A stretch of 22,151 nucleotides of DNA from a virus: IMG/VR virus record IMGVR_UViG_3300018041_000080, positions 1 through 22,151 of that record; one strand, written 5' to 3'. The notes under the pieces are model-generated. The model saw only the letters and a program-made list of their open reading frames with translations, ran no database searches and had not been told where the DNA came from. Each line of letters begins with the position of its first letter. Position 1 is the first letter of the stretch. Position numbers and translations under genes: made by a program. This document shows positions 1,399 through 22,151 of the stretch, piece after piece.

Positions 1399-3015
1399 AT
1401 GGCAAAATATATAGTAGTAATGGATTCAGACACTCATAGTAATGCTACCGAGGCAGAAAATGCTCTTAGTACAGCGGGTGCAGGAATAGAAAAAACATTT
1501 GCATTAAATCTAACATATGAAGTAGAAGCAACAGCAGAACAAGTTTCAGCAATAGTGGGATTAAAATATTCTAGTCTAAGTGATAGTGATTCAGGCGTAA
1601 GTTTACAAGCAATGAATACTAATCACTTTTTATATGTAGACAACAGGCACGTTGATTTAGAAGAAGCAAATGCAATGGTTAACCAAGATGTTGACCCAGG
1701 GTATAGTGCATTTGAACCAAAATATACAGGTTCAGGAAAAACATGCTATCTTATAGATTCCGGAGTACAATCAACCCATTCAGAATTCAGTGGTTCTACT
1801 ATTAATAACCTATTTACAACAGTAGATGGCGACTATGATGATTATACAGGACATGGAACATTCGTGGGAAGTTTAATCAATGGACAAAATGTTGGTCTTG
1901 CAAAAGACGCCACAGTTCAAAATGTCAAATTATTTGATCAGTTAGCAGGAACAATTAGTTTAGGTAACGTAATGAATGCTCTAGATGCCTGTTTGGTTCA
2001 TCATAATGCTAATAATCCAAATGATGTTAAAGTACTTTGTGCTCCATGGGTAACAACACAAAATGATATAATAGATTCCAAAATTGCAGAAATCAATAAT
2101 TCAAATATTGTTGTAGTTGCATCTGCAGGTAACCAAGGAAGTGATGTAAATAATTATTCACCAGCAGGAGTTAATGAGATAATTACTGTGGGTTCGCATG
2201 ATACTTCTTATAATATTACATCATTTACAAATACCCCATGGGACGGCTCAGATCCTGTAACATCAATCAACAACTATGGTGCGGCAATTGACATCTTTAC
2301 TATTGGTGTAAATGTAAGTGGAGCGGAAATGGGTGAAACAGGCACAACATACACGGACGGTACAGGTACTAGTGTAAGTGCAGGTATAGTTGCAGGTGGT
2401 GTGTTAGGATACATTGAAAAGCACCCAACAGAAGATTCAAATAGAATTAAAGAAATTCTAGTTGCTGAAGGTTCATTAAAAGGAATACAAAAATTAAATT
2501 TAGCAAATGCGGCAACTGACGGTGGATTTAGTACATCTAATACAAATAAAACAATTCTACAGGTTGATGCAGGTGGTGTTAATGCTACTCAAGACTTGTT
2601 TAATTACCCATCTGGATCAGTGGCAAAGGTACAAAGAGGACAATCAGTTACTGTGGATTTAGGTCTTAATAGTGGGGCATCTAATGTATCCGTATTAACA
2701 TTTAGTCCTTTAAGTCCATGGATGTCATTTGATACAAATACAGGAATACTTACTGCAGATACTTCTACATTAACAGCCGATCAAGCACCATCACATTATT
2801 TGTTTGGTGTAAGAGGTAAAGTAAACGGTATAACATTAGTTGAAGAGTTTGCTGTCAGTGTGTACAACACCAGTGAAGACGAACTAGTTGAAGGTACTAA
2901 TGCTTTCTATTACGACACTGATAATGACGAATATGATCAGGCACAAACATTAGATTGGCAGTTGGCTCCAATTATTACTCCAACATTTATGCCATTGTTT
3001 GACGGACCAAAATAA
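1399..3015 (+). CDS. Subtilisin-like serine protease (family S8) with propeptide and C-terminal Ig-like domain
   Basis: The catalytic triad is complete: Asp120 in LIDSGVQSTH, His152 in TGHGTFVGS, and Ser325 in GTGTSVSAG; Asn245 in ASAGN would form the oxyanion hole. Residues 3-70 resemble an inhibitor I9-type propeptide that chaperones folding and is cut off on activation. After the protease domain (about 110-375), residues 400-490 look like a beta-sandwich of the putative-Ig/cadherin-like type found in secreted and virion proteins. There is no signal peptide. The start is fixed by GGAG five bases upstream. It is one of only two rightward genes here and likely has its own late promoter. Plausible roles are virion protein maturation, digestion of host surface protein, or processing of a product of the neighbouring modifying enzymes. 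The family is certain; the target is not known. Confidence 0.9.
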   Translation: MAKYIVVMDSDTHSNATEAENALSTAGAGIEKTFALNLTYEVEATAEQVSAIVGLKYSSLSDSDSGVSLQAMNTNHFLYVDNRHVDLEEANAMVNQDVDPGYSAFEPKYTGSGKTCYLIDSGVQSTHSEFSGSTINNLFTTVDGDYDDYTGHGTFVGSLINGQNVGLAKDATVQNVKLFDQLAGTISLGNVMNALDACLVHHNANNPNDVKVLCAPWVTTQNDIIDSKIAEINNSNIVVVASAGNQGSDVNNYSPAGVNEIITVGSHDTSYNITSFTNTPWDGSDPVTSINNYGAAIDIFTIGVNVSGAEMGETGTTYTDGTGTSVSAGIVAGGVLGYIEKHPTEDSNRIKEILVAEGSLKGIQKLNLANAATDGGFSTSNTNKTILQVDAGGVNATQDLFNYPSGSVAKVQRGQSVTVDLGLNSGASNVSVLTFSPLSPWMSFDTNTGILTADTSTLTADQAPSHYLFGVRGKVNGITLVEEFAVSVYNTSEDELVEGTNAFYYDTDNDEYDQAQTLDWQLAPIITPTFMPLFDGPK

Positions 3016-3023: not shown

Positions 3024-4175
3024 ATGCTTTTTATAGACTTAACATCAGAATCTGATGTTTTTAATTCGACATCTCCTCAGGGCCATTGGTTATATCATAA
3101 ATTTGGAAAAAGAAATTTCCCTACAGGAGAACTTGACTTAGAAGAAGTCAAAAATTTTATTTCTAAAGAAAACCCAAAAGACATTATATGTCATTCTTAT
3201 TTTGGAGACCCTTTATTTTATACAAAAATTATATCTTTTGCAGAATATTGTTATGAAGAGGGTATTAATTTAATGTTATTTACTTATGGTAATTTTAAAA
3301 GTAAAAATGATATAGATCGCCTAACCGAATTAAACGTTAAATTTTATATATTTTTATGCGGTAACAATAAAAATAATAGTTTAGTGTACATTAATTCTTC
3401 TAAAGATAATATACAATACATTTTTGAAAACATAAAAGCAGAAAATTTATTTATAGAATATTCATTGTATGACCATAATGTTAACGATTTAAAAGAAATC
3501 TTACAAGATGTTTTAGAAAAACGATGCAATATAAAAGTATCACATGGAAACTTACTGGGAAATACTTTTACTAATATAATGAACGAAAAAGGTAGATGGC
3601 TTTATGATATACATAAATGTAATATAGAATTTGATTTTATAGGAAAATTTATTAAAGATACAGAAGTATTATCAGCAATCAACACATTAGAGAACTTAGA
3701 ATATAAATCAAAAGGACTATCACAAACAGCACCCGGATACTTATTGTTAAGAACTTTTATATACGATCGTGGACAAAATAATATTTTTAATACAACTCTT
3801 GAAAAAGTTAATGCTGAGAAATTTTTAAAAACTGATGGAGATACATATATAAATTACTTAGGTTATATATTTGAAAACAGAGATATTTATGAAACTTTTA
3901 GTAACTCTCTCTGTGATGATTGGAGTGAAAATTTAAAAAGAAATGGCCAATCAAAAATAGAAAATTCTTTAATTTCCAGTGATATGAAAAAATTAATACA
4001 CATTAACAGCAAAAACAAAGCAAATGAGAAATTAAAAATTGTATATAAAGATAAAGATCGAAGATCGAGTATGAAACTTGATCTTGACTTTACAGAAGAA
4101 GGTAAAACATTGCACTTGTTATCGTTTTTAGCAAACGAAGATTTATCTAAATATCATATTTCTAAACAGTTTTAG
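3024..4175 (+). CDS. Radical-SAM-fold-like protein lacking the CxxxCxxC cluster motif
   Basis: I do not recognise a named family, but residues 1-160 follow the pattern of the radical SAM barrel. There is a first strand (LFIDLT), a helix starting GELDLEEVKNF, then SYFGDPLFYTKI in the place of the GGEP motif, a helix, and LMLFTYGNF in the place of the TNG strand. The loop after strand one, where CxxxCxxC should bind the iron-sulfur cluster, contains no cysteine at all (residues 8-18 are Ser/Asp/Asn/Thr-rich). A cluster is therefore not expected, and the protein may be a catalytically dead partner or a binding protein. Residues 170-383 have no motif I can name. The gene starts eight bases after the subtilase stop and so may share its mRNA. 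Its end overlaps by 14 bases the end of the convergent, intact radical SAM gene. The fold is inference from pattern only. Confidence 0.6.
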   Translation: MLFIDLTSESDVFNSTSPQGHWLYHKFGKRNFPTGELDLEEVKNFISKENPKDIICHSYFGDPLFYTKIISFAEYCYEEGINLMLFTYGNFKSKNDIDRLTELNVKFYIFLCGNNKNNSLVYINSSKDNIQYIFENIKAENLFIEYSLYDHNVNDLKEILQDVLEKRCNIKVSHGNLLGNTFTNIMNEKGRWLYDIHKCNIEFDFIGKFIKDTEVLSAINTLENLEYKSKGLSQTAPGYLLLRTFIYDRGQNNIFNTTLEKVNAEKFLKTDGDTYINYLGYIFENRDIYETFSNSLCDDWSENLKRNGQSKIENSLISSDMKKLIHINSKNKANEKLKIVYKDKDRRSSMKLDLDFTEEGKTLHLLSFLANEDLSKYHISKQF

Positions 4176-5193
4176 TAATAGAAATATCCGATATATTATT
4201 ACAAAAATCAAAAGGACATATGGTCATAGAATCTGGTATATACCAATCAGTACTTGTAATATTACCAAAATTTACTGCTCCACACCAACTACTATATATT
4301 TCACCACTGGCGTCTATATTTAAACTTTCATATCCTAAATGACATTTTAGTCCTTTAAATTTATTAAGACCTTCATTTATTATTTGATGGTGTTGTACAA
4401 ATTTTTTTGTTCCATCGTCATATAAAAACTCTGTCATTATATCTGTATTTATGAATTCTTGAGACTCTGAGATATTACCATCATCTTGTTCTTCAGGTTC
4501 TGCAGGCTCTATTGGCATAGGTGCAATGCCGGGTTTTTGTAGTATTTCTAACTCCTTGTCTGTGTAGTTCCAGTATGTTTCCTGCTTACTGTGACGCCCT
4601 AAGAGCTTCTTATACATAGTCTTTACGCATATACTGACGTTATAATAGTAATTATGTTCACAATCTTTAAATAAATCCCTGCATTCTTCAGCAAAATCTC
4701 CTAATTCTTCTACCTTTTCGCCTACACCTGCAATGTTTATATCTATTTTAACATCTTCTTTGATCTCATTTATTACGTCTAAAAAATGTTGTTTATCCTG
4801 TGTCTGAGGATGGAATGTTAGTACAACACTATCCATATAATGTTTTGCTTTACTCCACCAATTAACCGTTCTACTGGCATTTGTATAAACAACACTGGTT
4901 GAGTTATACTGGCTGATCTTTTTAATTATATCCTCGAACCCTGGTATCACAGTGACTTCACCACCTATTAATTCAAAATCTGTTCTTTTCCCTATTCTAT
5001 TATAGTATTCACATAGACGCTCTATTGTTTTTATGTATGTATCTTTTTCTAACCAAGGCTTAGAACCGTCATGTAATATAGGAGGACAATATTCACATTC
5101 ATAATTACATGAATTACCCATGTTCCATTGTATTCTGATAAAGTCCATTACTCCACGAGCATGAGGACCACGAACTGAAATGAGATTTGGCAT
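4162..5193 (-). CDS. Radical SAM enzyme with SPASM/twitch-like C-terminal cysteines
   Basis: The cluster motif CNYECEYC gives Cys29, Cys33 and Cys36 in the canonical CxxxCxxC spacing, followed by a GGE motif (LIGGEVTV) and a TNA strand, as expected for a radical SAM barrel. Such enzymes reduce S-adenosylmethionine to a 5'-deoxyadenosyl radical. Four further cysteines near the C-terminus (about 284, 304, 326, 331), around an IDASGEIY segment, resemble the SPASM/twitch region that binds an auxiliary cluster in peptide-modifying enzymes. An acidic, Pro/Glu-rich insert lies at about 225-245. The ATG shares its first base with the TAA of the PAAR gene (TAATG), so translation is probably coupled to a tail-spike protein. 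The substrate is unknown; a protein or peptide is the best guess from the C-terminal cysteines. Confidence 0.85.
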   Translation of the reverse strand: MPNLISVRGPHARGVMDFIRIQWNMGNSCNYECEYCPPILHDGSKPWLEKDTYIKTIERLCEYYNRIGKRTDFELIGGEVTVIPGFEDIIKKISQYNSTSVVYTNASRTVNWWSKAKHYMDSVVLTFHPQTQDKQHFLDVINEIKEDVKIDINIAGVGEKVEELGDFAEECRDLFKDCEHNYYYNVSICVKTMYKKLLGRHSKQETYWNYTDKELEILQKPGIAPMPIEPAEPEEQDDGNISESQEFINTDIMTEFLYDDGTKKFVQHHQIINEGLNKFKGLKCHLGYESLNIDASGEIYSSWCGAVNFGNITSTDWYIPDSMTICPFDFCNNISDISITKTV

Positions 5194-13116: not shown

Positions 13117-13437
13117 TTACCAGGAAATATTCCAGGTAATTGTAGAATTGGACGAAGTATTTGTTTTAACGGCTACTCCATACCCTAGATCTTCGAAATG
13201 TTTTTTAACATAATTCATTTGATCTAATTTTGTAGGATCAGTTGTGATACTGTTCCATACATTGTAATAAACATTACTGTTAGTCATAGTTGTTGAACTG
13301 ATGACATTTGCATATAGTACACCAGCATCTATATTTGCAATAACGGCACTTTCTATAGCAGTAACTTCTGAATGTATAACACTATTATTTCTGGTGTCCT
13401 TTCTAGCCTGAGTTGCATTTACAAATATATTTGCCAT
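13117..13437 (-). CDS. Small virion-type protein of marine T4-like phages, unknown function
   Basis: The 106-residue product begins MANIFVNATQARKDTRNN, then a helix-forming segment (VIHSEVTAIESAVIANIDAG) and a Thr/Asn/Ser-rich C-terminal part ending in alternating aromatic strands (TITWNISW). I recall proteins of this shape, with an 'ATQAR..R.N..IH.E..AIE..I' start, as conserved but functionally unassigned in marine T4-like phages; that resemblance is from memory and not checked. No catalytic motif is visible. It is coupled to the preceding gene through a TAATG overlap and ends 39 bases before the nuclease gene. A structural role is inferred only from its company. Confidence 0.65.
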   Translation of the reverse strand: MANIFVNATQARKDTRNNSVIHSEVTAIESAVIANIDAGVLYANVISSTTMTNSNVYYNVWNSITTDPTKLDQMNYVKKHFEDLGYGVAVKTNTSSNSTITWNISW

Positions 13438-13763
13438 TATAAATCCGCCTTAATATCTTTCATTGCCTGATTACCAGCCATTTTACCTACATTAACACTG
13501 GGTTCAGCATCAGTATCTATATCTCCAGATAATTCACTGTTAGGTATTATCTCTTGATCATCTACACTACTAGCAAATCCACTGGTATCAACAGCCTGGA
13601 TAATTTCCTCAGTAGAAGCAACATATCCCTGCTTTGCTAAAATATTTTTAAATTTATCTGTTTTTATTTTTTTAAGATTTTTAGAAGATATTACGGCAAG
13701 TAAATCTTGTACTGCACTTAATAAGTCATCATTATATGACTCTGTAATATCCTTAATAAGCAT
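13437..13763 (-). CDS. Small acidic protein, unknown, possible capsid-leader-like N-terminus
   Basis: The 108-residue protein starts MLIKDITESYNDD. Helices occupy residues 10-65, and the C-terminal half is acidic and disordered-looking before a final basic helix (GKMAGNQAMKDIKADL). I do not know a function. The first nine residues resemble the short N-terminal capsid-targeting leader of T4 internal proteins, with an I-T-E triplet at residues 6-8 that fits the T4 prohead protease rule (Leu/Ile-x-Glu); this is a weak match by itself. The ATG directly follows the TAA of the 432-residue gene, and the stop overlaps the start of the next gene, so the three are co-translated. Confidence 0.6.
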   Translation of the reverse strand: MLIKDITESYNDDLLSAVQDLLAVISSKNLKKIKTDKFKNILAKQGYVASTEEIIQAVDTSGFASSVDDQEIIPNSELSGDIDTDAEPSVNVGKMAGNQAMKDIKADL

Positions 13764-15062
13764 TTACACCTCTATTGGTGCACGTCCTAATGGTTCATCT
13801 TCTGGGCCTGATGCGGCTGGTTCGTTTACATCCATTTCAGGTTCAGAGGCTAAATCATCTAAACTTACATCATCTGAGCCAAGATCACTTGTATCACCTA
13901 GACCTAAGTCTGTTGGTTGACCTGTAATATTACCCACTATTTGATTGACACCGTCTTTTGCTTGTTTTGATGCTTCTAACGCCTGTGATAAAACACTCTC
14001 TGCTGAGTCTTTAAACTGGGAAGCCTTATCTGCACCAAATTCATTTATCATTTGATCTGCTATTGCTGGTAGATCTTCATTTACCATTCTTCCTAATCTT
14101 TCTACATGATCCTGGATATCATCTGCTAATGCTCTAACCGCCATAACAACTTCTGCTTCTTCTACAGATTCAACTTCTTCAGAAAGCATATCGTTTATAA
14201 TATCATCGAACATACTTTCTTTCTTTGCTTGTTTCTTTTCATCTGATGTATCGCCAGTAACTTTGTAAGTTTCGCCGTCTACTTCGAACTCATCTTTACC
14301 TTGTGCAATCGCGTCTTTTCTTGCACCTGTAAATTTGTTTTGCTCTGCAACTTTCTTACCAAACATTTGGATACCGTTTGCAACTGCATCTTCTTCTAAA
14401 CCGTTTAAGAAACCAACAACTGCATCTCTGCTTTTGCCACTTACTTCTGCAAACATATTAATTTTTTCTTCAATTGCTTCTAAACTTGTCACATCTTCTA
14501 ATTCTACACCACACTCTTTTGCTAGTTCGCTAAGAAGTTTTTGGTTTAAATCTGTTTGTGGGCCATCTATTGCAATTTCTTCTAATGATTCATGTTTAGA
14601 ATTACAACTTGCTTCATAATATTCTTTTGCCGCTGTTAATACTATAGGTAAAACATGCTCATCATCATAAGCATATCTGGAATCTTTTCTAAATCTATTC
14701 ATACATTCTTTACTTGCTTCATCCATAGTGTAACCAGAATCCATTAATTCTTTAATGGTTTCTCTTAAACTACTACACATAGATTCATAAGCAGGTGATT
14801 CTGCATACATGCCTTCTGATAGCATTGTATCGATAACATCCTTAATGCCTAAATACTTTGCATATTCAGGTTCTAATTGAAAATGCTTATTTGTATCTTT
14901 AAGTTTGATAATCGCTTTTTCAGTCATTTCTTTTACAGTAGTAAGTTTTTCCTTTTTAGGAAAAGAACCTACTGCTACAGACATTCCAAAATGTTCTTTC
15001 AATAGACTATTAATTTTGTTTATTTTAGTTTTTCCGCTTGTATTTAAATCTCTTAAATGCAT
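13764..15062 (-). CDS. Acidic helical virion-type protein, 432 residues, unknown
   Basis: The protein begins MHLRDLNTSGKTKINKINSL, is largely helical and strongly acidic, and ends in a low-complexity Asp/Gly/Pro tail with EPLGRAP near the end. The segment around residues 305-375 (ALADDIQDHVERLGRM, then QALEASKQAKDG) looks like a long coiled coil. I recall proteins of this outline, ending in EPLGRE-like tails, as conserved in marine T4-like phages and probably virion-associated; a head scaffold or core role is possible, but no family motif proves it. It has a good late-promoter core (15095-15102) and an AGGA before the ATG. It heads a translationally coupled three-gene set running to 13117. 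Confidence 0.65.
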   Translation of the reverse strand: MHLRDLNTSGKTKINKINSLLKEHFGMSVAVGSFPKKEKLTTVKEMTEKAIIKLKDTNKHFQLEPEYAKYLGIKDVIDTMLSEGMYAESPAYESMCSSLRETIKELMDSGYTMDEASKECMNRFRKDSRYAYDDEHVLPIVLTAAKEYYEASCNSKHESLEEIAIDGPQTDLNQKLLSELAKECGVELEDVTSLEAIEEKINMFAEVSGKSRDAVVGFLNGLEEDAVANGIQMFGKKVAEQNKFTGARKDAIAQGKDEFEVDGETYKVTGDTSDEKKQAKKESMFDDIINDMLSEEVESVEEAEVVMAVRALADDIQDHVERLGRMVNEDLPAIADQMINEFGADKASQFKDSAESVLSQALEASKQAKDGVNQIVGNITGQPTDLGLGDTSDLGSDDVSLDDLASEPEMDVNEPAASGPEDEPLGRAPIEV

Positions 15063-15725: not shown

Positions 15726-16112
15726 CTATCCGGCATGCATTGCCGCCATATGCTTTTTATACTTGGCTGTGCCTTTTTTGTGTGGGCTTTTACCTTCGGG
15801 TAAGTCTAAATGTGAAAGCATATTAATAGCATCTTCTATTGCTTTGCCTGTATCACGACCTCTATAAAATTCTGGCATATTGTCTGCCATATAACTTTCT
15901 AGTTCGTCCATGCTACTGAAATCATCTATCATGGGTTCAACTAAATCGTGTAATATTTTAGCGGCCCTGTCTCTGGCCTCACCTTCTTTTACTTTTTTCT
16001 TTGTTTTACCAAAAATACTAGGATTTGGACGTTTACGCATACCACCAAGTGGTACTGCCACTGTGGCAACAGCACCTGCTGTAGTCTCTGATATTATTTC
16101 ATTTATTTTCAT
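15726..16112 (-). CDS. Small protein with capsid-leader-like N-terminus and basic C-terminal tail
   Basis: The frame is open further upstream to an ATG at 16184, but that would overlap the preceding gene by 68 bases. The ATG at 16112 lies five bases below that gene's stop and gives 128 residues starting MKINEIISETTAG. This resembles the N-terminal targeting sequence of T4 internal capsid proteins, and I-S-E at residues 7-9 fits the prohead protease rule, so cleavage after Glu9 is plausible. The middle is helical and acidic. The end, SPHKKGTAKYKKHMAAMHAG, is a basic module I recall at the ends of several proteins of marine T4-like phages. Function unknown; packaging inside the head is inference. 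It is preceded by GATAAATA with a five-base gap. Confidence 0.6.
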   Translation of the reverse strand: MKINEIISETTAGAVATVAVPLGGMRKRPNPSIFGKTKKKVKEGEARDRAAKILHDLVEPMIDDFSSMDELESYMADNMPEFYRGRDTGKAIEDAINMLSHLDLPEGKSPHKKGTAKYKKHMAAMHAG

Positions 16113-16116
16113 AATA

Positions 16117-17031
16117 CTATTTATCTTCGTTATAAAGACTAAAAAATTCGTTGGCAATATCATTATGAATCTCTGGCCCATCATGACTGAGATCTCTTGC
16201 TTTAGTATAACTAGGTTTATAATAAAGTAAGTTACTATCTAAAGAACTAAAATGTATATTAAGAGACTTACATCTATATTTTAACAATGCTTCGTCCCTA
16301 TGATAATTTAAAAATGTGGTATGCTCTAGACTACATATGTGGTTTAAAAGATCTCTAGTTAAATTTTTATCTTCCCAATTATCCAGATATTTGTCATTAA
16401 AAAATGGCTGAAGGCTAACGTCTTGATCTTCTAATGGCTTTTCTGCTTCTTGTATATCAGTGAAACTAATTAAATCCAGTCTATTAGGCGGGGGTATAAG
16501 TAAAAATACTCCCTTGACCTTTTTAAACTCTTCTAGAAGGTATTCTGTACAGTACATACTTGAAATATTTGTTGAACAACCTGGAACGGATAAATTAATA
16601 TACTCACAATCCATTTTATCTGCTAGTTGGTGTATCCATGTTTGATGTTGATGTAACCCAGTGCCATATGTAATACTACAGCCTATTCCAATAATTACTT
16701 CTTTATCTTTTATTTCATCAAAATTTTTGCTTCTGCATCCATGTTTGTTAATCTTATATTCTATTTGTACAAGTTTACCATCTTCAACCCAATTATTCTT
16801 TTTCAATTTTTCTAAACTATCAGGGTTTTCATCACAATTAAAAGTATCAATTCCTACGTAATATCCTTCATCATTTAATTTTTTTTCTTCAGGTATTATA
16901 GGAACTGATCTTTTTTGTATTAGTCTTGATAAAAATTCCATATACATGTCTTTATCATTCTGATATATCTCTTTTAGATATCTGTACATCTTTCCATTCG
17001 TTAAATTTAATTTACCTAAATTTTTACTCAT
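16117..17031 (-). CDS. SGNH/GDSL-hydrolase-like protein, copy 2
   Basis: The catalytic-serine block is IGIGCSITYGTGL with Ser119, as in block I of SGNH hydrolases, where the segment sits at the end of the first strand. A later Asn/Gly block (INLSVPGCSTN) fits the oxyanion positions. The C-terminal ARDLSHDG provides the Asp-x-x-His pair (Asp280, His283). These enzymes remove acyl groups, for example acetyl groups on sugars, or cleave esters. Residues 1-95 form an N-terminal part not typical of the core family, shared in its last section (NKHGCRSKNFDE) with the upstream paralogue. There is no signal peptide. The start overlaps the stop of that paralogue as ATGA, so both are translated together. 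The substrate is unknown; surface polysaccharide or virion glycan is a guess. Confidence 0.7.
   Translation of the reverse strand: MSKNLGKLNLTNGKMYRYLKEIYQNDKDMYMEFLSRLIQKRSVPIIPEEKKLNDEGYYVGIDTFNCDENPDSLEKLKKNNWVEDGKLVQIEYKINKHGCRSKNFDEIKDKEVIIGIGCSITYGTGLHQHQTWIHQLADKMDCEYINLSVPGCSTNISSMYCTEYLLEEFKKVKGVFLLIPPPNRLDLISFTDIQEAEKPLEDQDVSLQPFFNDKYLDNWEDKNLTRDLLNHICSLEHTTFLNYHRDEALLKYRCKSLNIHFSSLDSNLLYYKPSYTKARDLSHDGPEIHNDIANEFFSLYNEDK
16118..16125 (-). promoter_or_regulatory. Late-promoter core GATAAATA five bases before the gene at 16112
   Basis: The complement reads GATAAATA, then GTATT, then ATG. It overlaps the last codons and stop of the SGNH gene. By T4 geometry transcription would start on the ATG. 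The five bases GTATT closely resemble the GTAGT at the PAAR gene. Confidence 0.45.
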
Positions 17032-18080
17032 AATGATAATTTGTTTACTATATCACAAGCAAAATTATGATGTGTTCTTTTTCCGTAATGTGCCATATCT
17101 CTAGCAAAATCAAAATCATCGGCACGGTATTCTTCTGCAAAAGAATAAGAACTCTTTACTATTAAAGGTATGTTAGACTGATATGCTATTTTTTGTATAG
17201 ATTGTACACCTGTAGATGTTCTCTCTAAACAATTTTCCTTACCCAATAAAATATTTTGATTATGTCCGATCCAATCTGGTTCTGTATCAGTATCATTAAA
17301 ATACTTATGTACAAAAGGTACTCTACCAGTATTTAAAGTAGTCTTTCTTCTGAAATCTCTAATCCATTCCATTTGTATAATGTCAGTTCCAGTTTCATGA
17401 AAAATGTTTTCATGGTATTCATACTTTGGATTTTCGTGATCATACCAATTACAAAAATAAGAATATCTTATAGAAGGAGGAAGTAATACTACAATAGCCT
17501 TGCAATTCTTTACCTCATGTTTAAAAAAATAATTTATGTAAAGATTCCAAAAATCTATACCAATTGCAGGGCAGGATATATTTACCGATCTTAATCCTAA
17601 TTCTTTTGCTACTAATTCAGTCCAAATATCATCTTGATCCAACCCTGTACCAAATGTATGACTACAACCAAAAAATACAATAGAATCTGTATCAGTAAAC
17701 TCTTCACAACGAAATCCGTGTTTATTGACATAGTATGAAACATTATCATTACATTTTCCATCTATATCTATATACCCCTCTCTTTTCAGTACTTTTTCTT
17801 CAAAACTTTCTTGTTTATTGTAAAGTGATTCTAGAGTATCCCCTAAACTAAATTTAAACTTCATAGAATATTCTGGTCTGTCACATTTCTCTTGCCAGTC
17901 AACATGAAAATTATTCATACTCCTTTTGTAATACATTTGTCTTATTTTGTTAAAAGAAATATTATCTTGGTTAGTATCTCTTATGAATCGATTATCATGA
18001 TAATAGATAACTTTTTGAATTTCATCAAGAGAAGAAAAATAATCTATATCGGAAAATATGTCTGTAGATATGTCGTACAT
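17028..18080 (-). CDS. SGNH/GDSL-hydrolase-like protein, copy 1
   Basis: Block I reads VFFGCSHTFGTGLDQDDIW with Ser140, and the C-terminal Asp-x-x-His is ARDMAHYG (Asp328, His331), matching the next gene's protein in order and spacing. The shared NKHGFRCEEF before block I and the shared ARD..H.G...H ending show that the two arose by duplication, although overall identity is low. Its N-terminal 110 residues differ and are rich in aromatic and charged residues. There is no export signal, so it acts inside the cell or as a virion part. It starts twelve bases after the dismutase-ParB gene, with an AATAAATA box five bases before its ATG and no ribosome binding site. Confidence 0.7.
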   Translation of the reverse strand: MYDISTDIFSDIDYFSSLDEIQKVIYYHDNRFIRDTNQDNISFNKIRQMYYKRSMNNFHVDWQEKCDRPEYSMKFKFSLGDTLESLYNKQESFEEKVLKREGYIDIDGKCNDNVSYYVNKHGFRCEEFTDTDSIVFFGCSHTFGTGLDQDDIWTELVAKELGLRSVNISCPAIGIDFWNLYINYFFKHEVKNCKAIVVLLPPSIRYSYFCNWYDHENPKYEYHENIFHETGTDIIQMEWIRDFRRKTTLNTGRVPFVHKYFNDTDTEPDWIGHNQNILLGKENCLERTSTGVQSIQKIAYQSNIPLIVKSSYSFAEEYRADDFDFARDMAHYGKRTHHNFACDIVNKLSL

Positions 18081-18085
18081 GCATT

Positions 18086-18093
18086 TATTTATT
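18086..18093 (-). promoter_or_regulatory. Late-promoter core AATAAATA five bases before the first SGNH gene
   Basis: The complement reads AATAAATA, then AATGC, then ATG at 18080. It overlaps the last base of the preceding stop codon. It is the third exact example of the NATAAATA-N5-ATG arrangement. The box is in an (AAAT) run, which raises the chance of a random match. Confidence 0.4.
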
Positions 18094-19643
18094 TAGGATT
18101 TTTTCTTGCCAGCCTTCATGTTGGCACACCAGTGATACATTTTGCCTCGCTCACCACTATACTTTTTGGCCTTCTTGCGAAGTTCCGTTGCGGAACCTTT
18201 ACAACTTGCACCTGCACGTTTTACACGCCCTGGTCTACTCTTGCCTTTCACTTTACCGTCAGCAAGGTTTTCGTCTACTATATATGCTGGTATTTCTTCT
18301 TTACCAATATCTTTTGCTTTTTGAACTCTGTGGAATCCATCCAATATAGTTTTGCCATCAACATCTACCACTATAGGGTCTGTTGTGTCAGCAAAATTCA
18401 CATCACCCAAATCACCTATAATCCTGCCAAACCCTGGTGTTTTCATGTCTAAGTCTGCTACTTTAACTTTTGTTAGTATTGTGTTTTTGCCTTTTAAATA
18501 CTGCTTTACTTTAGCACTTAAATTTCTTCCTTGCTTTGTAACATCTTGCGACTTATAATTTTCATCGTATATGCTTTTTTTAGGTAACTTTTTTAGATCT
18601 TTTTCTCGTTGTTTTAAATCTGCTTCTATACCTTTAAGAAGAGCACTCATATCTTGTGATGCTTCTATTGTTTCACTTATCGCTTTTAATTTTTTCTCAT
18701 ATAAAGATTTAAAATAATGTTCTGGCATTACTTCTCTGTCACTAGTTGTATGAGAAAAATGATTCATAATATCTTCTATTTCAGAATTTACCATTATAGC
18801 ATCTACCTTTTTCATTCCCAACATATGAGCCGCATCATATCTATGGTGTCCATTTATTAGATAGCCATTTTTATCTAGAATAAAAGGCTTATCTTCATTA
18901 TTTAGGAAAATATCTTGTGCTTTTTTACTCAGTCCTTGAACTCGTTGAGTTTGTACTGGCTTTATATTACTAATACTTATAGAACCTCTTTTATATGTAA
19001 ATGGTGATGCATCTAAATCATTTTTATTTATTTGTGGCATTTGACTTCTATCAAAATGTTTATCTGATAACTTTCTATTGTATTCTTCTTCTACAACTTC
19101 CCTTAGTCTAATAACACCACAGCCAACTCTGTCTCCTGCATTACCTGTTTTTAAACTTTCTTCATCACCGCCTTGACCTAAATCATCTTCATCTGCGTGA
19201 ATAACTATTGCTCTACCTACTATGTCAGAAAGTTCTACCCTTTCTGCTTTGATTTGAAATCTTGCTGTACCTGATTTATCTGCAACTATATTACCTAAGT
19301 CACCTACATGCCCTTGTTGTAAACTGCCATGATCAACACCGTCTGGATTGTAATGGCCACCTGCACTAGCACAACCATCACTTAGATCGCCAAATTCGTG
19401 TATGTGAAAGCCATGTTTACCTGGTGTTAACCCTTTTACTATGCCTTTAATTATTGTAGGCTGTCCGGGTTTTTGTTTAAACTTTACAGCACCTTGTACA
19501 TTACCTTCAGTATGTTCAAGTTGTGCTATTGCTTTGATTGTTTCTTCGGCCTCAGTGATACCTTCCAGTCTACTACATTGGCATCCAATAGATCTTGTTT
19601 TAGGGCAGGGTATTACCTGTTGTATTGCATCAAATATTTTCAT
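18093..19643 (-). CDS. Cu/Zn superoxide dismutase fused to two ParB-like domains
   Basis: Residues 33-183 are a complete Cu/Zn superoxide dismutase. Copper ligands are His80, His82, His97 (bridging) and His149; zinc ligands are His105, His112 and Asp115. The disulfide pair is Cys91-Cys175, and the active-site arginine is Arg172 in GNAGDRVGCGV. Two ParB/sulfiredoxin-like segments follow: one around 253-285 with LINGHHRYDAAHMLG, one around 422-456 with ILDGFHRVQKAKDIG, separated by a Lys/Glu-rich coiled coil (315-355). The last 40 residues form a basic module (GASCKGSATELRKKAKK, then MYHWCANMK). No secretion signal is present; the N-terminus MKIFDAIQQ resembles T4 capsid-targeting leaders, and Ile29-Thr-Glu31 could be a prohead protease site. 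The start overlaps the preceding gene by 14 bases. Domain calls are strong; the joint function is unknown. Confidence 0.88.
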   Translation of the reverse strand: MKIFDAIQQVIPCPKTRSIGCQCSRLEGITEAEETIKAIAQLEHTEGNVQGAVKFKQKPGQPTIIKGIVKGLTPGKHGFHIHEFGDLSDGCASAGGHYNPDGVDHGSLQQGHVGDLGNIVADKSGTARFQIKAERVELSDIVGRAIVIHADEDDLGQGGDEESLKTGNAGDRVGCGVIRLREVVEEEYNRKLSDKHFDRSQMPQINKNDLDASPFTYKRGSISISNIKPVQTQRVQGLSKKAQDIFLNNEDKPFILDKNGYLINGHHRYDAAHMLGMKKVDAIMVNSEIEDIMNHFSHTTSDREVMPEHYFKSLYEKKLKAISETIEASQDMSALLKGIEADLKQREKDLKKLPKKSIYDENYKSQDVTKQGRNLSAKVKQYLKGKNTILTKVKVADLDMKTPGFGRIIGDLGDVNFADTTDPIVVDVDGKTILDGFHRVQKAKDIGKEEIPAYIVDENLADGKVKGKSRPGRVKRAGASCKGSATELRKKAKKYSGERGKMYHWCANMKAGKKKS

Positions 19644-20265
19644 CGTCTATTTTATTTTTTATTTCTCTTAGTTTTTCTTCAAAGACTTGATCTAATTCAA
19701 ATATTGCACTTTCTAAATTATTCTTGGCTTTATAGACTTGATTAATATCATATTCATCTATTTCTACACCATATTTTTCTGCAAGTAATGACAGTTTAGA
19801 AATAATGTCCATATGCATATCTGCATATTTAATTTGTTTTGTTATATCCCTTGCTTCTTTCACAGCAAACTCTAAATCCATAGCATAGTCATTTAAGTTT
19901 TCGTATATGCCTTTACCGTACTTAAAAGTTTTCTTTTTCTTTTTCTTTTTCTTTTTACCAGGGACCATACTACCTAAAAATGCATAACCTCTACTTACTG
20001 GTGCATCACTACTAGGAGTGGAATCGGAGGATGTAGTACCACTATCTCCGGTGCTACCACTATCTGCAGACCCTCCGTCTCCACCTGAACTTGTTCCACC
20101 TGTTGCTCCGCCTGTGCCACCTGCGGCACCGCCGCCTCCTGCACCGCCGCCTGCACCGCCTCCGGCGCCACCGCCACCGCCACCGCCGCCGGCTTCTGCG
20201 TCTAGACGTGAACGTTTGCGTTTTTCTAATTCTTCTTTACTTAAAAATAATTCACTTATTTTCAT
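19630..20265 (-). CDS. Protein with poly-Gly and poly-Lys linker, unknown function
   Basis: The 211-residue product begins MKISELFLSKEELEKRKRSR, again like a capsid-targeting leader. Residues 26-60 are nearly all Gly with some Ala and Thr, 60-90 are Ser/Thr/Asp-rich, and nine consecutive lysines follow at 104-112. The C-terminal 90 residues are charged helices, likely coiled coil, ending KNKIDDENI. No enzyme motif occurs. Poly-Lys near a flexible linker suggests contact with nucleic acid or with a negatively charged capsid interior, but that is inference. The start overlaps the stop of the preceding gene (ATGA) with AAGGG upstream. The glycine part is locally very GC-rich in an AT-rich genome. 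A long proline-rich frame on the opposite strand is only its shadow. Confidence 0.7.
   Translation of the reverse strand: MKISELFLSKEELEKRKRSRLDAEAGGGGGGGGAGGGAGGGAGGGGAAGGTGGATGGTSSGGDGGSADSGSTGDSGTTSSDSTPSSDAPVSRGYAFLGSMVPGKKKKKKKKKTFKYGKGIYENLNDYAMDLEFAVKEARDITKQIKYADMHMDIISKLSLLAEKYGVEIDEYDINQVYKAKNNLESAIFELDQVFEEKLREIKNKIDDENI
19933..19956. repeat. Four tandem CTTTTT units (AAAAAG on the coding strand)
   Basis: Four perfect copies of CTTTTT encode the poly-lysine run of the 211-residue protein. Such A-rich repeats can expand, contract or cause polymerase slippage. Confidence 0.75.
20077..20190. repeat. GC-rich imperfect triplet repeat encoding the glycine linker
   Basis: The stretch consists mainly of GGC, GGT and GGA codons read leftward, interrupted by Ala and Thr codons. 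Codons vary, which suggests selection for glycine rather than recent simple-repeat expansion. It is the most GC-rich segment in the window. Confidence 0.7.
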
Positions 20266-22151
20266 ACTTTACCCTTTTTAAATTTCATCTGCACAAATAC
20301 TTCTGCTGGATTAGAATTAGAACTTACAGCACTTACACCCAACGAACCTGAGTGTGGACCTTCTATAAATTCTATAAACTCATCTTCACTTTTCATATAT
20401 GCTGTTTTGCCTGTATACAAATCTATTGCTAATAATGAATCAAACTTACCTTTACTTACATAATCTATATAATTTGCACCAGCATATTGCTTTGCTATCT
20501 CTATACTTTGATTTGACGATTGAACTGCTTTTGCAATCTTTTGTACTGCTTTTGGTATAAAGACGCCTGTATATAAATCTTTAACAATTAACCCTCTTCT
20601 TTTGTCTCCTACAGGTAAATCTGTATTTAGATATTCTAAAAACTTTCCGAATCCTAGAGTTTTGTTTCTGGGATCTTTTAAATGTTGTGCTATGGAAGGT
20701 ATATCGTTTTCATATTTCAATAGTCTTGCTGTAGCATCATCTCCAGTTAATCCGTGCATACCTAATCTTCCGCCACCTGAACTTGTCTCACTCTTACTTG
20801 CTTTGACTTCTACTAGGTCACCATCTACTTTAATATCTCCTGTAGAGTCACTTAATTGAACTCTATCACTAAGCATTGCTAATGCAAATTCACCTGGGCC
20901 TTTTCTATTAGATCCTACTCCGTATGGTAGTAACGTTTTAAATACTGTAAATCCTACATCTGACTTAAACACATTTGATAATGCATTAATAGGTTTCTTG
21001 ATAGCATCGACATCATAAGCAGAACCTGTTTTTTCTAAATCATCTAAAAAAGATTTAATTTTATCATAACTGCCTTCTACTTGATAAATTACCTTTGTAA
21101 GTATTTTAGTTGCTTCAAGTTTATCCATTGCTGTTTCGTCTGCTATAGGTCTTGCTACTACTGAACCAATAACTGTTTGAATATGATCTGAATTTAGTAT
21201 TCTCCAAATTTGGTCTATTATCCCTCTGTCTTTTTCATCTTCAATATCTAATTGTTTAATAATATCCTGTATTTTAATTTTTTCTGCTTCTAGATCTTCA
21301 TATTCAGAGATCATTATTCCTTCATTTAGATTTACTTGTTTTTGTGATGAAGGATCTAACTGTTGCTTAATATAACTTCTTAGTATAGGCCTTAAACATG
21401 CGTCGTCTCCGCCCTCTGAACGTCTGTCTCTAAATGCTTTTAACATGGAAGGTACAGGTAGAGCAAAATAGGCATCCATTTGTTTTTTAATATCACTTGC
21501 TGGCATAGGCTCTGCAAGTAATTTGTTTAACATTCTAACGACAGAGTTATCTGGTAAGGCACCCTCTTCCATTTTTTCTTTTTTCTTTTTCTTTTGAGGT
21601 TTATCGTGTTTATCAATTCTATCTGTTGCAAAAGTATCTTCTATTCTACCTTCTTGTTTTTTCTTACCATCACAATGAGCCTTTTGACTGAAACCTTTAG
21701 GGTTGCTACAGTTGATACTGTCCTTATATTTTTTGCTCCACTTTTCTAATACATCTGATTCGTTTATAATACGCAACCGTTCTTGTAAAGGTAGTTTGTC
21801 AAACTTGTCTAACACACTTTCTTGATTTTGTCTTGACATATTCATCCTTGCTGATGCTAATACAGATTGAAAGTCATCAAAAGCACCCATACCACTATCT
21901 GGTGTATCTGCAAGTGTATCTAATACTGCATTTTGAAAACGTCTGTCATTACTTGCATTATTTAAAAATCCTACTAGGTCATTTACAGAACCTCTAGCCA
22001 AATAGTTCTGCATACCATTTCGCATCATTTCATCAAACTTAGGCCAACGGTTTCTTGCTAAATCGTAATCTGAATTAAATTCTTTTTCTGGTGGTGTCGA
22101 TATTGTTTTTTCTGCATCTTCAGGTCCGCCTAATCTGCCACCAATGTAATC
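20262..22151 (-). CDS. Large virion-type protein with possible PD-(D/E)XK motif, start beyond the right edge
   Basis: The first ATG inside the window is at 22028, but the frame stays open for 41 more codons to the edge with coding-like sequence (DYIGGRLGGPEDAEKT at the edge), so the gene is truncated at its 5' end. At least 629 residues are visible. Counting from the ATG at 22028, residues 103-125 carry SINCSNPKGFSQKAHCDG, a basic two-cysteine module I recall in marine T4-like phage proteins, followed by a Lys-rich run. Residues 378-411 contain GEFALAMLS and DIKVDGDLVEVKAS, with Glu380, Asp398, Glu407 and Lys409 spaced like a PD-(D/E)XK nuclease core. Whether it cleaves DNA is uncertain. It heads the leftward run with the poly-Gly protein and the dismutase fusion. 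Confidence 0.65.
   Translation of the reverse strand, partial: DYIGGRLGGPEDAEKTISTPPEKEFNSDYDLARNRWPKFDEMMRNGMQNYLARGSVNDLVGFLNNASNDRRFQNAVLDTLADTPDSGMGAFDDFQSVLASARMNMSRQNQESVLDKFDKLPLQERLRIINESDVLEKWSKKYKDSINCSNPKGFSQKAHCDGKKKQEGRIEDTFATDRIDKHDKPQKKKKKEKMEEGALPDNSVVRMLNKLLAEPMPASDIKKQMDAYFALPVPSMLKAFRDRRSEGGDDACLRPILRSYIKQQLDPSSQKQVNLNEGIMISEYEDLEAEKIKIQDIIKQLDIEDEKDRGIIDQIWRILNSDHIQTVIGSVVARPIADETAMDKLEATKILTKVIYQVEGSYDKIKSFLDDLEKTGSAYDVDAIKKPINALSNVFKSDVGFTVFKTLLPYGVGSNRKGPGEFALAMLSDRVQLSDSTGDIKVDGDLVEVKASKSETSSGGGRLGMHGLTGDDATARLLKYENDIPSIAQHLKDPRNKTLGFGKFLEYLNTDLPVGDKRRGLIVKDLYTGVFIPKAVQKIAKAVQSSNQSIEIAKQYAGANYIDYVSKGKFDSLLAIDLYTGKTAYMKSEDEFIEFIEGPHSGSLGVSAVSSNSNPAEVFVQMKFKKGKV

Follow-up and report, generated by a model that had tools for sequence, protein, structure and literature searches.

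A phage Cu/Zn superoxide dismutase fused to ParB-fold segments as a candidate unit of a head-cargo polyprotein

Why would a phage carry a Cu/Zn superoxide dismutase (SOD) on the same polypeptide as two ParB-like segments? The question is raised by a 516-residue ORF in a 22,151-nt stretch of viral DNA (IMG/VR record IMGVR_UViG_3300018041_000080; hereafter the window). From the sequence alone, this ORF had been predicted to encode a probably active dismutase, two ParB/sulfiredoxin-like segments and a basic tail, with the SOD tethered next to DNA, where it could protect packaged or incoming phage DNA or the iron-dependent ribonucleotide reductase that the window also encodes. The ORF is present where it was predicted, but its strand needed correcting: across 18093-19643 the plus strand is closed to reading, and the coding frame is on the minus strand (Table 1). 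Two other IMG/VR contigs (L021 and L110) hold an ORF identical to that of the window, which rules out an assembly or sequence error as the source of the fusion. No tRNAs and no Rfam matches at gathering score were found in the window.

Table 1. Features in and around the SOD-ParB gene (window positions; CTS, capsid-targeting sequence; a slash within a motif marks a candidate cleavage site)
Feature	Coordinates	Strand	Remarks
SOD-ParB ORF, 516 aa	18093..19643	-	leader, Cu/Zn SOD, two ParB/Srx-fold segments, basic tail
Predicted propeptide, residues 1-31	19551..19643	-	start MKIFDAIQQV (loosely CTS-like); C13-P14-x-T16-x4-C21-x-C23; site ITE31/A32
Cu/Zn SOD domain, SOD1-type, residues 32-182	19098..19550	-	Pfam, alignment, structure match
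Post-SOD linker with candidate second cleavage site VEE186/E187	19083..19097	-	site under broad motif; P1' is Glu
ParB/Srx-fold segment 1, residues 212-307, NGHHR motif	18723..19010	-	structure match
Candidate site ISE324/T, ahead of helical module TIEASQD...	18672..18674	-	module follows Glu in other loci too
ParB/Srx-fold segment 2, residues 390-458, DGFHR motif, ending at candidate site VDE458/N	18270..18476	-	phrog_17560 and structure match
Basic C-terminal tail module, residues 459-516	18096..18269	-	NLADGKxxGKSRPG...KMYHWCANMKAGKKKS (also given as NFADGKxxGKSRPG...KMYHWCANMK)
Homologue of PA5oct gp245, structural protein (ESI-MS/MS)	13117..13437	-	E=4e-16
MLIKDITE/S protein, homologue of PA5oct gp246 (MKIKDILVE/S; ESI-MS/MS)	13437..13763	-	single sequence E=1.8e-4, profile E=2.5e-11
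Homologue of PA5oct gp247, virion structural protein (ESI-MS/MS)	13764..15062	-	E=3.5e-28
CTS-like protein MKINEIISE/TTAG	15726..16112	-	ATG at 16112, four bases past the stop of gene 16117-17031; first ATG of the frame at 16184
Upstream neighbor, CTS-like start MKISELF	19630..20265	-	KYGKGIYE stretch
Giant protein, C-terminal part	20262..22151	-	KYKxSINC...GFSQKAHC module

The Pfam family Sod_Cu matches residues 49-178 of the protein (E=1.4e-44). In an alignment of 31 sequences, the columns that we take, from the SOD1 alignment and general knowledge of SOD1, to be the copper ligands (H80, H82, H97 and H149) and zinc ligands (H97, H105, H112 and D115) are invariant in 31/31, as are the disulfide cysteines C91 and C175 and the active-site R172. 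We modeled the 516-residue protein with AlphaFold2 (mean pLDDT 69), and the SOD part of the model superimposes on human SOD1 with a Z score of 25.9 and an rmsd of 1.2 Å over 147 aligned residues (residues 35-182). The closest PDB structures to this domain are eukaryotic SOD1s, at ~50% identity. As the original prediction held, the phage SOD is probably an active enzyme, judging by its intact set of catalytic and structural residues. It is likewise a phage-borne Cu/Zn SOD in the manner of the prophage SodC of Gifsy-2 and Fels-1 (PHROG 1975), with which it shares ~31% identity; Gifsy-2 SodC is annotated as a precursor, whereas the leader of the window SOD has, by eye, no long hydrophobic stretch. 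A further candidate, the sodC of Acinetobacter phage MD-2021a (L081, CAKLQH020000003.1), was rejected as phage evidence, with bacterial metabolic genes all around it.

Both ParB-like segments were also borne out, mainly by structure. The Pfam family ParBc_2 matches the ParB part at E=0.0028, under Pfam's cut-off, and the profiles phrog_620 and phrog_17560 match segment 1 (E=1.2e-12) and segment 2 (7.5e-7), respectively. In the model, segment 1 (residues 212-307) resembles pNOB8-like ParB-N (Z 9.9, rmsd 4.0, 96 aligned residues) and segment 2 (residues 390-458) resembles Caulobacter ParB (Z 8.0, rmsd 2.0). The structure tool itself describes a Z near 8 as modest, and the call for segment 2 is less firm because its score spans 67 aligned residues. 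Solved structural relatives of the segments with the NGHHR and DGFHR motifs are ParB, sulfiredoxin (Srx) and free serine kinase. These comparisons of predicted folds support a ParB/sulfiredoxin fold for both segments. The basic tail is present as well.

The relatives of this protein bear on whether the SOD needs its ParB partner. An IMG/VR scan with the whole protein gave 593 confirmed stretches, of which the best 79 were used, many of them matching the ParB part or the tail only; a scan with a leader-SOD profile gave 252, of which 80 were used. They include at least 69 distinct SOD-bearing segments: 66 have the HIHE core, and the rest are one bacterial segment and two without the core pattern. 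Merging by core left 62 distinct SOD proteins among the matches listed, 17 of them single-domain. The NGHHR ParB motif is found in 31 of the 62 and absent from the other 31; proteins that are neither single-domain nor NGHHR-bearing have other partners, and some chains run off the contig end. The position of the SOD varies (first, last or internal), and in L144 it is fused behind a protein whose C terminus resembles that of a giant protein in L004, with a site at the joint. L127 encodes SOD and ParB in two neighboring genes. Split genes, which the original prediction had associated with a sequence error, do occur, but the fusion in the window is no such error. We conclude that the SOD-ParB fusion is genuine, yet dispensable to phage SODs, and tethering as the function of the SOD is weakened by these SOD-only and split forms.

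Isolate phages offered few relatives. Among 50,697 records, a search with the whole protein gave 6 matches at E 1e-5, mainly through the SOD part at ~30% identity, and none of the 6 spans >80% of the query. With the post-SOD part there were 15 matching records (E up to 1), through the ParB part only, and its ParB part matched a phage PLxRFG protein at E=5e-5. The comparison phage used below, PA5oct, was absent from both sets of matches. Scanning genome contigs with the leader-SOD profile gave 4 relatives out of 29 pattern matches, on contigs of three marine MAGs (L190-L193; labels Betaproteobacteria, Pelagibacter and Rickettsiales) that carry the cargo locus described below. Because their neighbors are the same cargo-type genes, we read these as probably phage contigs binned with bacteria. 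Within the reach of this profile, a cellular origin of the leader-SOD cassette was rejected on the same grounds.

What accompanies the SOD, even inside longer chains, is a short leader. Just ahead of the first SOD strand, 64 of the 66 SODs among the matches listed have a C[PK]xTx4CxC motif followed by [LIVM]xE; in the other two, a different module ending VYE/A takes its place. Across the 48 distinct leader contexts among these matches, P1 is Glu and P3 is hydrophobic in every one, P1' is A in 36, S in 6, G in 3, D in 2 and T in one, and none has LIVMF at P2, P4 or P5. P6 is hydrophobic in 48/48, as in a helix, which suggests that the leader is more than a protease site. In T4, the prohead protease gp21 cleaves after L/I-X-E, and virion proteins lose N-terminal propeptides of 7-65 residues (PMC9026906). 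The predicted site of the window protein, ITE31/A32, fits this propeptide rule at the sequence level. Residue 1 of human SOD1 aligns in structure with residue 35 of the phage protein, so a cut at 31/32 would leave an N terminus near that of the human enzyme.

The genes around the SOD often begin in the manner of T4 head proteins. We counted starts of the form M[KR]x1-2[DE][FILVM] as CTS-like and found them in 251 of 1,724 genes among the matches listed, compared to 23.4 expected when residues 2-12 are shuffled and to 109 of 9,745 internal methionines fitting the pattern. An [LIVMF]xE site lies within residues 6-20 in 103 of the 251 CTS-like genes versus 193 of 1,473 others. These starts resemble those of T4 ipIII and gp24 (ipII/ipIII MKTYQEFIAEA, gp24 MAKINELLRES) but differ by one residue in the register of the motif; T4 ipIII itself is one residue beyond what the strict pattern allows. 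They are concentrated near the SOD in G019 (7/22 genes versus 3/188 elsewhere) and G015 (6/21 versus 0/61), and more weakly in G007 (4/16 versus 9/134), G003 (3/14 versus 3/65) and G004 (4/16 versus 4/55; p 0.03-0.07 for these three). In the window, 1 of 21 called genes fits the pattern, and the start of the SOD protein falls outside its strict form; relatives and neighbors fit. Small cargo proteins have a CTS-like start followed by E/xATAGATSAGN, as at the presumed cleavage site of gp23 in G019, G045 and G046.

Two neighbors share features with this group. A stretch like the KYGKGIYE of the upstream neighbor lies directly ahead of the SOD leader in L004, L009, L016 and L127. In the lineage of the window, a giant protein of 2000-2350 residues with a CTS-like start lies just upstream of the SOD region (L001:666-7178, L006:907-7971); the L001 copy, of 2170 residues and starting MKFTDV, had no match at E 0.01 among the 50,697 phage records.

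We then asked what lies at the joints between domains. Counting genes whose start is complete, the tail module occurs in 67 distinct ones, of which 48 are CTS-like (among the matches listed); without SOD, the proportion is 34 of 45, against 251 of 1,614 for all genes. Its partners include an FMN reductase in L032, whose start is not CTS-like, and a HAD-like domain with a weak GNAT match in L072. The shared tail is also part of a 615-residue CTS-like protein of L063 (5066-6913), in which a tRNA nucleotidyltransferase/poly(A) polymerase (E=7.5e-38) is combined with a 5'-nucleotidase (E=2e-8). Of the five [LIVMF]xE sites in this protein, two lie between the enzymes and one ahead of the tail; of the remaining two, one falls within the 5'-nucleotidase match. 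Other cargo-type proteins (L074:5384-6580, L042:9072-9917) contain recurring Cys-rich modules, such as CSDKCCGADVKxEDCTCPPTCKHCNCN, that are possibly metal-binding.

Of the 65 distinct contexts directly ahead of the tail among the matches listed, 60 have a hydrophobic residue at P3, compared to 13 at P2, 10 at P4, 5 at P5 and 18 at P6. Three further modules show the same tendency, with hydrophobic P3 in 14/17 (P2 6, P4 2), 13/15 (P2 2, P4 7) and 10/14 contexts (P2 5, P4 4), against a background of 28.8% hydrophobic residues beside Glu. The four modules were picked once they had been seen to recur, with the L/I-x-E rule known beforehand, and Glu was absent from the expected place in five CWKGY and two KYK contexts. 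Leader and joint contexts share ancestry, so p-values are not to be read literally. The helical module TIEASQD... also follows Glu directly in L019, L031, L035, L046, L111 and L125.

A similar site follows the SOD. Of the 38 contexts with >30 further residues (among the matches listed), 37 have a broad [LIVM]xE site, a count that stands when the RLRE/TLKE end of the SOD itself is excluded, versus 8.9 expected on shuffling and a maximum of 17 in 500 shuffles; under a narrower motif the count is 31/38 versus 6.0 expected. The window protein is one of the seven that fail the narrower motif, having Glu at P1'. Where the SOD ends the chain, 3 of 19 also show a broad site in their last residues. Because a protease-type site follows the SOD in nearly every extended context, the SOD is possibly released. 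This, with the many SODs that are single-domain or otherwise without NGHHR and the split genes of L127, speaks against the original view that tethering to ParB is the point of the protein.

One alternative is that the chain is packaged yet left uncut, the whole SOD-ParB protein acting as an effector of the polyvalent type with the SOD tethered near DNA, which would transfer the original tethering idea to the virion. Polyvalent proteins are multidomain, phage-delivered and often contain ParB, and some injected ones are unprocessed, according to Iyer et al. 2017 (PMC5512222); additionally, the window protein is a single uninterrupted ORF with an imperfect post-SOD site, and half of the SOD proteins listed keep the ParB motif. 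Against this stand the joints, which keep Glu and a hydrophobic P3 while adjacent residues vary, and the relatives, in which SOD without ParB equals the fusion in frequency and L127 has the genes split. We therefore regard an uncut chain as unlikely.

The link to the virion is indirect and comes through gene order. The virion connection suggested by the original prediction holds only to this extent, by synteny with proteins of phage PA5oct (Arenbergviridae) that are marked as detected by ESI-MS/MS. The window genes for NrdB, NrdA, 9261, 9702, an exonuclease, 13117, 13437 and 13764 correspond in the same order to PA5oct gp240 to gp247, within its virion locus gp239-gp262, where the ESI-MS/MS note is attached to gp243, gp245-247 and gp249-254. 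PA5oct has 13 CTS-like annotated starts, of which 7 are marked detected (gp333, 309, 279, 254, 246, 105 and 104) and 6 are not (gp408, 303, 220, 103, 075 and 049), compared to 93 of 445 genes overall (p=0.008). Among those that also have a site, 5 of 6 are detected (all but gp103). The count becomes 5 of 8 with gp213 and gp428, two unmarked genes in which the CTS-like start is internal to the annotated one by a few codons. The note is an imperfect sign of virion parts, because ribonucleotide reductase and others are also marked. Gp246, which is both CTS-like and detected, has its counterpart in the window; unlike the window, the syntenic stretch of PA5oct has the reductase and no annotated SOD. 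Position is the sole tie between the SOD and the reductase, and the proposed protection of that enzyme found no other support.

Head genes of the T4 type were found with the SOD on one contig. G019, of 196 kb, has homologues of T4 gp17, gp18, gp20, gp21 and gp23, and thus brings together a single-domain SOD, a gp21-type protease and gp23. A gp21-type protease was found in 3 of 49 contigs searched and gp23 in 3 of 41; of the contigs with head genes G019 alone carries SOD, and the protease is also present in two other cargo contigs. In G019 and PA5oct, ~60-100 kb separate the head genes from the cargo locus, so their absence from shorter fragments is expected, though not proved harmless. The window record is itself a 22-kb fragment. 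G007, which has the gene order of the window, starts just ahead of its tail sheath and terminase genes.

These data also bear on the possibility that the gene is an ordinary auxiliary metabolic gene, making a cytosolic SOD during infection, with the leader as a metal- or disulfide-handling pro-domain or a folding aid. The SOD copper chaperone has a CXC motif, which the CxC of the leader resembles. All three leader cysteines are invariant in 31/31 aligned sequences (a set restricted to leader-bearing proteins), the leader accompanies SOD in longer chains, and its residues 11-30 are modeled at pLDDT 77-79, all of which would suit such a role. However, the gene has CTS-like genes around it and its locus shares gene order with virion-protein genes, L071 has a similar CPxTx4CxC-NLNEA unit ahead of a domain that is not SOD, and sites follow the SOD as well as precede it. 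We consider this explanation quite improbable by itself; the leader could serve both pro-domain and packaging roles. Finally, modules are plainly shuffled at the joints, and phage recombination at short shared DNA could make joints alike with no protease cutting, but at the protein level P1 Glu and hydrophobic P3 are kept while P2 varies, in the same way at four modules and gp23, which makes this very improbable.

We favor, as somewhat probable, the interpretation that a large T4-like marine myovirus makes this chain as a head-cargo polyprotein. The N terminus would target the chain into the prohead core, and a gp21-type prohead protease would cut after [L/I/V]-x-E at head maturation, as the conserved sites suggest. 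The cuts would remove the 31-residue propeptide and probably split the rest into an SOD of ~155 residues, ParB-fold parts and the tail. The SOD would then ride in the virion, be ejected with the genome and clear superoxide in the new host ahead of phage gene expression; its benefit may be relief from superoxide at entry or a blunting of the host oxidative response. The ParB-fold parts, once apart, would probably each work on DNA or nucleotides, in line with proposals for polyvalent proteins. Packaging and cutting are thus suggested by sequence and synteny, and the finding reaches beyond its first description, the SOD being one member of a shuffled set of probable head-cargo modules.

T4 provides a close precedent. 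Its internal head proteins (IPI-III, Alt) have a short N-terminal targeting propeptide ending L/I-x-E, as predicted here, a gp21-type protease is encoded in the same genome as the candidate cargo in G019, and Alt is a precedent for an ejected enzyme (PMC9026906 and PMC3012670). T4 cargo consists of single proteins, whereas here there are several domains per chain, candidate sites at the joints and an SOD as putative cargo. Polyvalent proteins likewise have several domains, with ParB/Srx among them, and are thought to be packaged and injected; their processing is proposed to depend on their own metallopeptidase domain, and none appears among the Pfam matches of the 516-residue protein. The portions of PMC5512222 on which this comparison draws describe no CTS or L/I-x-E joints, and the word superoxide has 0 occurrences in that paper. 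A shallow search of open-licence PMC full text returned no description of a packaged SOD, of marine-phage CTS cargo or of prohead-cut cargo chains, an absence that carries little weight.

More generally, these phages may use cargo polyproteins in which a single capsid-targeting sequence leads a chain of unrelated enzymes (SOD, ParB-fold, tRNA nucleotidyltransferase, 5'-nucleotidase, HAD-like and GNAT-like) and short Cys-rich modules, the joints being prohead-protease sites at which the maturing head cuts the chain into separate effectors; the SOD leader may also use its CxC for copper loading prior to removal. We see this wider proposal as evenly poised between holding and failing. If it is true, the phage would carry a ready antioxidant enzyme into the host at the first moment of infection, and superoxide could be tested directly as a barrier to, or defense against, phage entry. 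The idea of T4 internal proteins, so far one of single proteins, would come to include shuffled cargo chains cut by a protease, a simple sequence rule would serve to find injected phage effectors in metagenomes, and phage heads would offer a natural design for loading several proteins.

Other genes of the window complete the picture of the locus. Next downstream of the SOD gene is a pair of neighboring genes (16117-17031 and 17028-18080) with a common GCSxTxGTGL motif, which presumably resembles that of SGNH hydrolases, and gene 17028-18080 has a weak Pfam match to DUF6473. Farther away, a subtilase-family protease is encoded at 1399-3015 on the plus strand (E=7e-19), and a radical SAM protein at 4162-5193 on the minus strand (E=5.8e-6, under Pfam's cut-off).
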